Under the pieces are notes generated by a model. The model saw only the letters and a program-made list of their open reading frames with translations, was not told where the DNA came from and made no database searches. Source: Verrucomicrobiota bacterium (GTDB taxonomy: Bacteria > Verrucomicrobiota > Verrucomicrobiia > Limisphaerales > UBA9464). Taken from it: a stretch of DNA of 36,961 bases. Shown here piece by piece: positions 12,890 to 17,989 of the stretch. A program made the translations under genes and the position numbers. The stretch lies in contig WBXI01000014.1 of the NCBI GenBank assembly GCA_008933025.1, positions 1-36,961 of the forward strand, read 5' to 3'. Positions within the stretch are counted from its first letter, which is position 1. Every line of letters starts with the position of its first letter.

Positions 12890-14029
12890 TCAGTGCTTCA
12901 GTCCGGCGAAGAGGATGGCCAGGTCGATGACGAACAACAGCACGATGGTGACCTCGAGGATCATCATCCAGCGGTTCATCTGGTCGTGCTTCAGCAGTTC
13001 GTGCAGATCCGCGACGGCGCGGAGCTTGGCGTCGACCGAGCGATGCCAATCGCCGAGGTGAAAGCGGGAGGCGACGGTCTCGTAGACCCGGGCGACATGC
13101 CAGTCGCCGAAGAACTTGGTGATGTTGGAGAGCTCGTCGTTGAACCGGGTGAGATCCATGCGGAGCTCGCGGAGTTCGCGGATGAGGGCGGATCGGCCGC
13201 GGACGGCGGCACCGAGGTCGCGGTAGGTGCGTTCGAGGGACGAGTCGAGGATGCGGTCGTACGCCTCGAGTTCGGTCAACTGGAGGTTGGCGAGTTCGAG
13301 GACATAGAGCGTCTCTTCCCACTCCGAGGGATGGTCGACCACGAGGGCGGCATCCCAATCGATGACGGCGAGGTCGTCCTCGTAGTAACTGAGGTGGCGC
13401 GCGGTGGATTCGATGGCTTCCTGCCGCGAAAGGATTTGGTGGCCCTGCTCCTGGGTGAGGACGGCGGCGATTTCGCGGCGATGGGATTCGAGCCACGCCT
13501 CGGCACGGATGGGTTCGCCGTGGGCACCGGTCAAGGGACCACGGAAGCAGAAGACGGTATAGGCCTCCTCCTCGGCGATGCGGACGATGGGTCGGACGAT
13601 CAGGGGCGCGAGTTCCTGGCGGATGGACTCGGCGAGTTGGCGGACTTCCTGGTGGAGGATGCCGTCCCCGAACTCGAGGTCGTGATAGGCGACCAGTTCC
13701 GCGAGGCTGGACACCCGGAAGGGGACCCGGACCCGGATGCCGATGGCCCCGATGGGGAGGATGCGGACCTCGCGTTCGACGCGGACCGTTCCGTGGGGCC
13801 CGACGCGATCCTGCGGCGGGAGGCGGACCAGTTGGGGTTTGTAGAAGAGCAGGTGCCGGGGACCGCGGCGGGAGGCGTCGAGGTTGTGGACCGCGACGGG
13901 ATGGCCCAGAAGGGTGGCAATGGGTTCGCGGCCGAGTTCGTAGGCGATGTCGTACGCGAAGAGATAGACGATCTCGCCGGCAAACCCGCGTGCCGGAATC
14001 TCGGGTGGGGTCTCGGGCGTCGTCTCCAT
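12890..14029 (-). CDS. Membrane-anchored protein with RMD1/DUF155-like layout
   Basis: A 379-residue protein starting METTPETPPEIPARGFAGEIVYLFAYDIAYELGRE. The body is a mixed alpha/beta domain followed by a long helical part (about 240-350: LELANLQLTELEAYDRILDSS...RELRELRMDLTRFNDELSNI) and one C-terminal membrane helix (MMILEVTIVLLFVIDLAILFAG) ending in LKH. The order (alpha/beta N-terminal half, coiled helices, C-terminal hydrophobic helix preceded by a DLHELLKHDQMNRW segment) resembles RMD1/DUF155-type tail-anchored proteins of unknown biochemical role, but I see no decisive motif, so this is a weak suggestion. It probably faces the cytoplasm, anchored at its tail. It diverges from the CvpA-like gene with 265 nt between starts. 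Confidence 0.8.
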   Translation of the reverse strand: METTPETPPEIPARGFAGEIVYLFAYDIAYELGREPIATLLGHPVAVHNLDASRRGPRHLLFYKPQLVRLPPQDRVGPHGTVRVEREVRILPIGAIGIRVRVPFRVSSLAELVAYHDLEFGDGILHQEVRQLAESIRQELAPLIVRPIVRIAEEEAYTVFCFRGPLTGAHGEPIRAEAWLESHRREIAAVLTQEQGHQILSRQEAIESTARHLSYYEDDLAVIDWDAALVVDHPSEWEETLYVLELANLQLTELEAYDRILDSSLERTYRDLGAAVRGRSALIRELRELRMDLTRFNDELSNITKFFGDWHVARVYETVASRFHLGDWHRSVDAKLRAVADLHELLKHDQMNRWMMILEVTIVLLFVIDLAILFAGLKH

Positions 14030-14294: not shown

Positions 14295-15668
14295 ATGTAC
14301 GTCTGGCTGTTTGCGTTGCTCTTCGCGATGATCTTCGGGGCGTTGGGCTACGGTTCGGGAGCGATTCGGACCGCGGTGGCGCTGCTGGGAACGCTGATCG
14401 CGCTGGCGGTGATGGCGCCGCTGGGGAATCTGCTCCATGGCATCACGGACCGGATGACCGCGGACAACCTGGTGCTGCAATACGGCCTGCCGTACTTCCT
14501 GGCCTTCGTCTTCGTGTGGCTCGCGGTCTACGGCCTTGGTTTTCTGGCGCACCATCCCGTGATGATCCACTTCAAGTACCGCGAGGACGACGCCACGCGC
14601 GAGGGATTCAACCGCGTCAACCAGGCCGGGGGACTGGTGATCGGACTATTGATCGGCATGATCCTCTTCTTCGCGGTGGGCAAGCGGGTGTATGCGGGCG
14701 GTTACCTGACCGCGCAGACCACCGGGGAGGGCGCGAACGAGCCGACCTTGGTGAAGCTCGGGACGGCGATTCGCCGCCACATGGATTCCTCGGGTTGGGA
14801 CAAGGCGTTCGCGGCTTTGGACGAGACGCCGGCGCGGTTCTACGAGATTTCGGACATGCTGGGGCTGCTGTACGAGAACCCGGCCGCGCACGAACGGTTG
14901 CGCGACTACCCGCCGTACCTCGAGTACGAGGACAAGGCCGAGTTCACCGAGTTCGGCGCGGAAGACTTCAAGGACCTGCTCAAGAACAAGGCCGGGTTTT
15001 CCTCGGTCATCAACAGCGCCCATGGCCGCCCCTTGCTCGGCAACCAGGAACTCGTCGACGCGCTCTTGAAAACCGACCTCAAGGATCTCGAGGCTTACCT
15101 CCGCACCGGCGTGGCGCCGAAATACGCGGACGAGAAGATCCTGGGCCGCTGGCGCATCGACGTGAGCAGTGGGTTGCTCCAGACGCGTCGCCTGCACGGG
15201 ACGATCAGTCCTAAGGAATTCGCGGCGATGCGGATGATCTACTCCGCCGTGCTCGGCGGATTGCGCCTGAAAGTGCTCACCGACGGGAGATTCGTGACCA
15301 GTTCGGCCGCGTCGAAACCGGCGGAGGGATCGGACGCCGCGGCGGCCCCGGTGGCCGCGGTTCCCGGGCCGCCGGCGATGGATCCCAGTCTTTCGGCGCG
15401 CTATGGGATCGGGCGTGCCCGGCCCGGCGCGGGTGGGGCACCCGCCGTCGCCGCGGCGCCGGTCGCGCCCGCCACGCAGTTCAAATTGCCGAAGGTGAAC
15501 CTCAACGGGGTTGGAAGCTGGAAGCACACCGAGGGCAACAAGTACCGCGTCAAGCTTCCCGATGGCGGGGGCGCCGCCGAACTCGATGCCACCATCAACG
15601 ATCTCGGCCGCCTCGTCATGCCGAACCCGGCGCAGAAGCTCGCCTTGGTATTCGTTCGGGCGGGCTGA
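14295..15668 (+). CDS. CvpA-like membrane protein with long soluble tail
   Basis: A 457-residue protein. The first ~135 residues hold four hydrophobic helices (WLFALLFAMIFGALGYG, AIRTAVALLGTLIALAVMAPL, YGLPYFLAFVFVWLAVYGLGFLA, AGGLVIGLLIGMILFFAVG) with the small-residue/Gly pattern of CvpA (colicin V production) proteins. A soluble domain of ~200 residues follows, then an Ala/Pro-rich linker (about 335-400) and a C-terminal segment with FKLPKVNLNGVGSWKHTEGNKYRVKLPDGG. CvpA proteins are linked to envelope homeostasis in other bacteria; the soluble tail is an addition I do not recognise. The start is the ATG at 14295. No partner gene is adjacent; the gene converges on the sigma/anti-sigma unit, and the terminator between them serves the opposite strand. 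Confidence 0.8.
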   Translation: MYVWLFALLFAMIFGALGYGSGAIRTAVALLGTLIALAVMAPLGNLLHGITDRMTADNLVLQYGLPYFLAFVFVWLAVYGLGFLAHHPVMIHFKYREDDATREGFNRVNQAGGLVIGLLIGMILFFAVGKRVYAGGYLTAQTTGEGANEPTLVKLGTAIRRHMDSSGWDKAFAALDETPARFYEISDMLGLLYENPAAHERLRDYPPYLEYEDKAEFTEFGAEDFKDLLKNKAGFSSVINSAHGRPLLGNQELVDALLKTDLKDLEAYLRTGVAPKYADEKILGRWRIDVSSGLLQTRRLHGTISPKEFAAMRMIYSAVLGGLRLKVLTDGRFVTSSAASKPAEGSDAAAAPVAAVPGPPAMDPSLSARYGIGRARPGAGGAPAVAAAPVAPATQFKLPKVNLNGVGSWKHTEGNKYRVKLPDGGGAAELDATINDLGRLVMPNPAQKLALVFVRAG

Positions 15669-15776: not shown

Positions 15777-16286
15777 TCACCGCCAGCCATTCCAGTGGAC
15801 GGGCATGACGGGCAAATCGGGAGGCGCAATGATGCTGGCCGGAAGACGGTTCGAGATCTGGGCGGGATCCACGGGGAAGAACTGCACCTGGTAGTGCACG
15901 CCGTCGGTGCGGTAGGGCCGGTCGTTGGCCAAGAGTCCGGACGACATCCAGGGACTGGGATCCATGCCGGCATTCGCGGGCGCGAAACCCTGCGGGTAGA
16001 CGGCCGTCTCCCCGGCGGTTTTGGCATGGTGCACGTAGATGCCGGCCACCGCGATCAGACCGATTCCGGCGCCGATCAGCGCATTGGCACCGACGAGGGC
16101 GGGACGCCCGGCAAAGAAACCCCGGACGCCGTCCCACCACCGTTCCGATCGCCGGGCTTCCTCCCGCTCGATGCGCCCGATGACCCCGGCGGAAAAATTC
16201 CGGAAGTATCCGGGCGGCGGCGTCTCGTGGCGTTTCAAGGCCACCAACCGCCGCACCTCGTCGAGTTCGTCGGGCATTTGTTCCAT
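15777..16286 (-). CDS. Probable membrane anti-sigma factor
   Basis: A 169-residue single-pass membrane protein. The N-terminal ~70 residues (MEQMPDELDEVRRLVALKRHETPPPGYFRNFSAGVIGRIE) form a short helical domain like the small anti-sigma proteins that follow ECF sigma genes in Verrucomicrobiota. One membrane helix follows (about 83-103, ALVGANALIGAGIGLIAVAGIYV), then a periplasmic tail of ~65 residues. No zinc-binding HxxxCxxC (ZAS) motif is present. The ATG lies 2 nt after the sigma-factor stop codon (TGACCATG), so the two are translationally coupled. The role is inferred from position and topology; no domain proves it. If the sigma gene is really inactive (see its in-frame stop), this protein may have no partner left. 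Confidence 0.75.
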   Translation of the reverse strand: MEQMPDELDEVRRLVALKRHETPPPGYFRNFSAGVIGRIEREEARRSERWWDGVRGFFAGRPALVGANALIGAGIGLIAVAGIYVHHAKTAGETAVYPQGFAPANAGMDPSPWMSSGLLANDRPYRTDGVHYQVQFFPVDPAQISNRLPASIIAPPDLPVMPVHWNGWR

Positions 16287-16288
16287 GG

Positions 16289-16936
16289 TCAGCGCAGAAA
16301 ATCCGAGAGCAACGCCTGCAACTGCTGGCGCGCGTAATACAACCGGGACCGCACCGTGCCGGGATTGCAGTTCAACACCCGCGCGATCTCCTCGTGCGGC
16401 ATGCCCTGGATGTCATGCATCGCAACCACGGCCCGATGTTCTTCGGACAGGCTGAGCATGGCGGCGTTCAATTTCTCCCCGAGTTCGCGCAGGTTCGCGT
16501 CCCGCCGGGGATTCTTGTGCGAGACCAACTGCACCATTTCGGGGTCGTGCTCGGCGTTGAAATCGAGATCGTTGAGGCTGACGTGAAGGGCCCGGTTGCG
16601 GCGTTGCTTGAGGTGGTTGAGCGTGTGGTTGACCGCGATCCGGTAGATCCAGGTGTAAAAGCTGCTGTCGCCCTTGAAGTTCTTCAGCGCCTTCCACGCT
16701 TTGACGAAGGCCTCCTACGCAAGGTCGTTGGCGTCCTCGTGGTTCGACGTCATGTGGTACACCAGCCCGTAGATCCGCTCCTGGTACCGGCGCACCAACT
16801 CGTCGAAGGCTCCGAGATCCCCGGTTCTCGCCGCCTCGACCAGGGTCCGCTCGCCGGAATCCTCCGCGGCAGGCACGGCGCGCCCGGTGGGCGTCGGTTC
16901 CGCGGTGGGCTCCATGAGGGTCGGGGCGAGCGTCAT
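16289..16936 (-). pseudogene. ECF RNA polymerase sigma factor with in-frame TAG stop
   Basis: Read through one stop, this is a 215-residue sigma-70 family ECF factor: region 2 (GAFDELVRRYQERIYGLVYHMTSNHEDANDLA-stop-EAFVKAWKALKNFKGDSSFYTWIYRIAVNHTLNHLKQRR) and region 4 (LSEEHRAVVAMHDIQGMPHEEIARVLNCNPGTVRSRLYYARQQL). The ORF track shows it as two pieces (16715-16936 and 16289-16537), but both are in the same frame, with one TAG at 16717-16715 between them. The family motif is D-L-[AT]-Q-E-[AV]-F, so the stop replaces a Gln codon (CAG to TAG, one base). All other sigma motifs are intact. It starts 6 nt after the polyprenyl synthase stop and ends 2 nt before the anti-sigma ATG. Possibilities are a fresh nonsense mutation, a base-calling error, or amber suppression; the sequence alone cannot decide. 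Confidence 0.9.
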
Positions 16937-16942
16937 GGGGAC

Positions 16943-17989
16943 TTAACCCCCCAAAGCGGAGGTTTGTTGCTCGAGAAAAGCCGTCAAAGCCACCAAGGCA
17001 TGGCGCTCCGGGGTCTCCTTCAGTTCGTCCAAAGCCTTCCGGGCCTCGTCGAGAAATCCCGCGATCACCCGGCAGGACTCGCCGCGAGCATCCACCGTCT
17101 CCAGCAATGCCCGCACCGCGGCGAAGGACGCCGGATCCCAACTTTCCAGCCATCCGATCATGCGGGCGACGTCTTCCGTTCCGGCACGCTCGAAGAACGT
17201 CAGCAGCGGCAACGTGACCTTGCCTTTGGCGAGGTCGGTGCCGAGCGATTTTCCCGCGTCGTCTTCCGCCCCGTAAAGGTCCACGCAGTCGTCGTAGATC
17301 TGGTAGGCGGTGCCCAGGGCCAGCCCAAACCGCCTCAAGGCAGCGCGTTCGGATTCCGTCCCCGAGGACAGCCGGCCGCCGAGTTCGCAGGCCAACGCGA
17401 ACAGTTCCGCCGTCTTCATCTCCAGCACCTTGAAATACTCGGCCCGGCCGAGGTTCCACCGGCGGCGGCGGTGGGTTTGCAGGATCTCCCCGGTGCATAC
17501 CACGTGGGTGGAAAGCGCCACCGCCCGGCAGATGTCCGGCGTCGAGAATCCCGCGGCCAGCTTCAACGCGTGCGCGAACAGGCAATCGCCCACCAAGACC
17601 GCCACGTCGGGGCCGCAATGCCGGGCCAACGTGGATCGACCCCGCCGCATCGACGCCCCGTCCATGATGTCGTCGTGGACCAAGGTCGCCAGATGGATCA
17701 TTTCGATGACCACCGCGAGGGTCACGTGCTCGTCGGTCTGGGGCCCGCAGGTCCCCGCGGCCAAGGCCACCAGCGTGGGGCGCAGTTGCTTGCCTTGGTT
17801 GGTCAGCGCGTACCGCGCGTACGAGGCGATTTCGGGCTCGAACGCATCCACCTGTTCGGCCAGACGCGCCGTCACCTGCTCCAGAAAGGCATGCGCGGGC
17901 CCCACGACTTCTTCCCACGCCGCACGGGTGCGGAAATTGGGGTCGGCTGGAATCGTCTCGGGATCGAGGCTCGGCGCGGGAACCGCCAT
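16943..17989 (-). CDS. ispB: Polyprenyl diphosphate synthase (trans-isoprenyl synthetase)
   Basis: A 348-residue all-trans polyprenyl synthase that adds isopentenyl diphosphate units to an allylic starter to make the long side chain of quinones. The first aspartate-rich motif is HDDIMDGASMRRGRST (DDxxD, about 125) and the second is YQIYDDCVDLYG (DDxxD, about 245). Other family marks are GKQLRPTLVALAAG near the N-terminus and GTDLAKGKVTLPLL after the second motif. The absence of bulky residues just before the first motif (LATLVHDD) fits a medium- to long-chain product (C35-C45), but chain length is not settled. It is the first gene of a minus-strand unit followed, 6 nt later, by the sigma factor. 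The gene symbol is the usual one for this family rather than proof of octaprenyl product. Confidence 0.93.
   Translation of the reverse strand: MAVPAPSLDPETIPADPNFRTRAAWEEVVGPAHAFLEQVTARLAEQVDAFEPEIASYARYALTNQGKQLRPTLVALAAGTCGPQTDEHVTLAVVIEMIHLATLVHDDIMDGASMRRGRSTLARHCGPDVAVLVGDCLFAHALKLAAGFSTPDICRAVALSTHVVCTGEILQTHRRRRWNLGRAEYFKVLEMKTAELFALACELGGRLSSGTESERAALRRFGLALGTAYQIYDDCVDLYGAEDDAGKSLGTDLAKGKVTLPLLTFFERAGTEDVARMIGWLESWDPASFAAVRALLETVDARGESCRVIAGFLDEARKALDELKETPERHALVALTAFLEQQTSALGG

Follow-up and report, generated by a model that had tools for sequence, protein, structure and literature searches.

Does a TAG inside the frame of a bacterial sigma factor gene reflect a recent mutation, an error in the sequence, or a codon that the cell reads as sense? 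The window that we analyzed, 36,961 nt long, is a whole contig of a draft Verrucomicrobiota genome (4.47 Mb in 375 contigs, 86% complete), whose relatives are uncultured Verrucomicrobia, several of them labelled Pedosphaera or Limisphaerales. On the minus strand, positions 16936-16289 hold one frame of 215 codons that closes normally with a TGA at 16291-16289. Translation confirmed what a preliminary description of the locus had read as two open pieces of one frame, split by a TAG at 16717-16715. This TAG is codon 74, falls within sigma region 2, and is the sole internal stop; we found no second disabling change in the frame, neither a further stop nor a frameshift. The features of the locus are as follows.

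16289-16936, minus strand: frame of 215 codons for an RpoE-like ECF sigma factor, broken by a stop at codon 74 (translation, profile matches, 112 orthologs aligned)
16715-16717, minus strand: the interrupting TAG (codon 74, sigma region 2), at a site that is Gln across orthologs (translation and ortholog alignment)
16715-16936, minus strand: N-terminal piece of 73 residues, the start of region 2, with no Pfam match when taken alone
16289-16714, minus strand: frame past the stop, with the remainder of region 2 (Sigma70_r2 positions 29-69) and region 4 (Sigma70_r4_2)
16289-16537, minus strand: first possible in-frame restart past the stop, from an ATG, 82 aa, region 4 only (inspection of open reading frames)
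16943-17989, minus strand: polyprenyl diphosphate synthase gene, intact, 6 nt upstream of the sigma frame (PF00348; conserved neighbor)
15777-16286, minus strand: intact gene, 2 nt past the end of the sigma frame, for a 169-aa protein with a single transmembrane (TM) helix that is a candidate anti-sigma factor (open reading frame, conserved position, structure model)

The frame is clearly that of a sigma factor. Read through the stop, it matches Sigma70_r2 with 71.2 bits (cut-off 24), and the piece past the stop matches this profile from position 29 and Sigma70_r4_2 with 57.2 bits, in agreement with the earlier proposal that regions 2 and 4 are preserved. TIGR02937, the ECF superfamily model in which region 4 lies close behind region 2, gives 120.5 bits against a cut-off of 42.9. 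Judged as an ECF sigma factor, the gene thus has region 2 and region 4, and fails in the continuity of its frame at the TAG. The nearest named family is the RpoE equivalog TIGR02939, yet the score of 158.8 bits is below its cut-off of 236.15, and the solved relatives are AlgU/SigH (PDB 6in7) and E. coli RpoE. A chance open frame is excluded, as by two-sided coding score this TAG ranks first of the 10,645 stop codons scored in 1.97 Mb of the genome, and 112 orthologs align across it.

In all 112 of these orthologs codon 74 encodes Gln (CAG or CAA), although some loci are the same gene taken from two collections and the distinct species are therefore fewer. The TAG does stand where a Gln belongs, one base away, as had been suggested. 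Conservation of the gene extends well beyond this codon: none of the 45 orthologs from the family contains an internal stop, and the gene was found in 28/28 family genomes with a completeness of at least 90%. The bin holds a single copy, its closest paralog being 38% identical. No conspecific genome was found that repeats the TAG at codon 74.

We favor, at slightly better than even odds (about 0.52), a single, very recent C-to-T change on this lineage that turned the Gln codon into TAG, which would make it a nonsense allele of the sampled strain or population. Such a change would have struck an otherwise intact and normally conserved RpoE-like ECF gene. Translation would stop at residue 73, inside region 2, releasing a fragment that lacks the rest of this region and all of region 4. 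Neither piece should be able to act as a sigma factor, so that no working copy would be made and the membrane-bound anti-sigma candidate would be left without its partner. This next gene would also probably be translated less, because translational coupling would be lost. We considered a split sigma factor made by re-initiation and rejected it: the frame contains no ATG, GTG or TTG between 16714 and 16537, and because the first in-frame start past the TAG, the ATG at 16537, leaves region 4 only, a restart could not rebuild region 2.

A natural loss of this kind would be unusual, because the gene is present in every one of the good-quality family genomes. This universality, in a gene that is otherwise undamaged, lends weight to a base error, or a mixed-strain consensus error in a metagenome-assembled genome, in which case codon 74 is really Gln and the gene is fully functional. 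The fragmented draft state of the source genome and the distance of one base between TAG and the codon of the relatives favor an error as well, and we assign it a substantial minority chance. On the other hand, this assembly has very few in-frame interruptions, as described below, and an error would require a separate cause for a nominal excess of replacements past the stop. There, the gene's own branch carries replacements and silent changes in a ratio of 11:13, compared to 1:11 on the sister branch (Fisher p 0.03); for the upstream gene, the ratio along this species' branch is 6:29. The p value of this excess is nominal, from small counts and one of several splits that we examined, and the excess weakly suggests a real mutation or a loss of constraint.

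Replacements past the stop also bear on how old it could be. If the sigma factor were dispensable and its gene had been decaying for a long time, an excess over the sister lineage would be expected, and some of the changes are indeed to residues that are rare in orthologs (positions 162, 172 and 200). However, only 5/14 of the own-branch replacements past the stop are to residues rare at their column, far under the 12 expected if they were neutral. Because selection therefore acted on the gene during most of the branch, the stop must be recent or not real. The frame has also acquired neither a second stop nor a frameshift, its GC3 past the TAG is 0.86, and the partner gene in this genome retains its conserved N-terminal motif. 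To judge from these substitution patterns, either the species is much older than the stop or the stop is a base error, and we regard old decay as very unlikely.

The continued constraint past the stop could also be explained if the TAG were read through by a suppressor tRNA, by recoding or as a leaky stop, yielding full-length sigma factor, perhaps at a low level. The preliminary description had listed suppression beside recent decay and base error, and had proposed searching for an amber-suppressor tRNA and for other genes with an in-frame TAG; neither search gave a clear case. Among 38 tRNAs above the cut-off, from a genome that is 86% complete, none has a CUA anticodon, and both Gln tRNAs found carry the normal anticodons CTG and TTG. 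About 8 ordinary anticodons, such as Ile GAT and Cys GCA, are missing from the same list, consistent with incompleteness, and because the assembly lacks these tRNAs and 14% of the genome, a suppressor tRNA might still be hidden. The RF1 gene prfA is intact, scoring above its cut-off in an open frame, no match to the pyrrolysyl-tRNA synthetase PylS exceeds the cut-off in the genome, and TAG is an ordinary terminator that closes 155/756 training genes. The genome therefore uses the standard genetic code with RF1, and an altered code is not indicated. Additionally, the relatives all lack a stop at this position, and a conserved recoding signal is therefore absent.

Our scan for other interrupted frames covered all 10,645 stop codons that have at least 40 open codons on either side. 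The coding model was trained on open reading frames with the expected GC3 pattern; it replaced one built from the longest open reading frames, which had picked up antisense shadow frames. Simulated interruptions passed the thresholds of 0.3 and 0.2 in 38% and 63% of cases, and because the scan detects this share of them, widespread reading of TAG would have been seen. No other clear in-frame interruption was found in the approximately 2 Mb scanned at this 38-63% sensitivity. Likewise, no in-frame stop occurs in 57 ABC, 34 response-regulator and 16 other sigma-domain matches (107 in total). Most of the other top cases are gene ends: either a start codon follows closely, or the genes that flank the stop are unrelated. 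We examined five further high-scoring interruptions (L181, L194, L251, L157 and L193) and rejected two as gene ends between unrelated families (6PGD/ABC transporter and ABC/rhomboid). The remaining three have no Pfam match on either side, and L193 was set aside with an ATG just downstream of its stop. L251:725-2311 (plus strand) and L157:9745-10452 (minus strand), with a TGA and a TAG, are weaker stop candidates, each of which may be a gene end, a shadow frame or an interruption. A search of the literature for sigma genes with in-frame stops in metagenome-assembled genomes returned nothing. General amber suppression is not supported, and with no other clearly interrupted gene in the scan we consider read-through of the TAG improbable. 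A narrower variant, in which low-level translation across a real TAG in this one gene keeps the sigma factor scarce while RF1 and the standard code are retained, seems less probable still. Of the three options offered at the outset, recent decay and base error stand and suppression falls away. We conclude that the TAG at codon 74 is either an ordinary nonsense mutation of recent origin or a base error, and does not point to an altered genetic code.

The surroundings of the gene also proved to be conserved. The 6-nt upstream spacing and the downstream coupling that had been described are both present, the latter as TGA-CC-ATG at the start of the next gene. A polyprenyl diphosphate synthase gene lies upstream of the sigma ortholog in 78/78 testable loci, and in 75/77 the ortholog is followed by a small open reading frame, of which 71 have a predicted TM helix. 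The order polyprenyl synthase, ECF sigma factor, membrane protein (15777-17989, minus strand) is thus kept across relatives, which suggests a link of the sigma factor with isoprenoid or envelope metabolism. Two long coding open reading frames adjoin the operon, at 12890-14029 (minus strand) and 14295-15668 (plus strand), without a Pfam match.

In an alignment of the 169-aa protein with its relatives (loci L040-L076), a K-R-x-E-x-P-P-P core close to the N terminus is invariant. The family has no sequence match in Pfam, NCBIfam or the PDB. A structure model with a mean pLDDT of 67.7 predicts helices H6-19 and H27-59 followed by a TM helix, H62-92, a part in which the pLDDT exceeds this mean. Given these two predicted N-terminal helices, the single TM helix and the conserved position, it is plausible that the product is an anti-sigma factor.

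Should the stop prove real, a sigma factor kept by all of the near-complete relatives would just have been lost from one strain of an uncultured Verrucomicrobia genus, which would show that the regulon can be dispensed with in certain conditions. A base error would matter for annotation only. In neither case does the TAG speak for amber suppression in this group, and a better lead than the stop codon is the conserved operon, which includes a candidate family of two-helix anti-sigma factors.

Known systems offer points of comparison. CnrY is described as binding through a two-helix plan (PMC7406223), and the two N-terminal helices predicted for the candidate, in this case preceding one TM helix, would fit such a Class II anti-sigma factor, although its sequence matches nothing in Pfam, NCBIfam or the PDB. 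Regions 2 and 4 of the sigma factor align end to end with RpoE-like ECF proteins such as E. coli RpoE and Pseudomonas AlgU/SigH, with the Gln of a D-x-A-Q-E-A-F motif at the position of the TAG. Unlike known RpoE, this frame has a stop and scores below the equivalog cut-off. Finally, ordinary recent nonsense alleles and draft-genome base errors share with this case a single substitution, no further decay and intact relatives; the sole difference is that the gene affected here is universal in its family.
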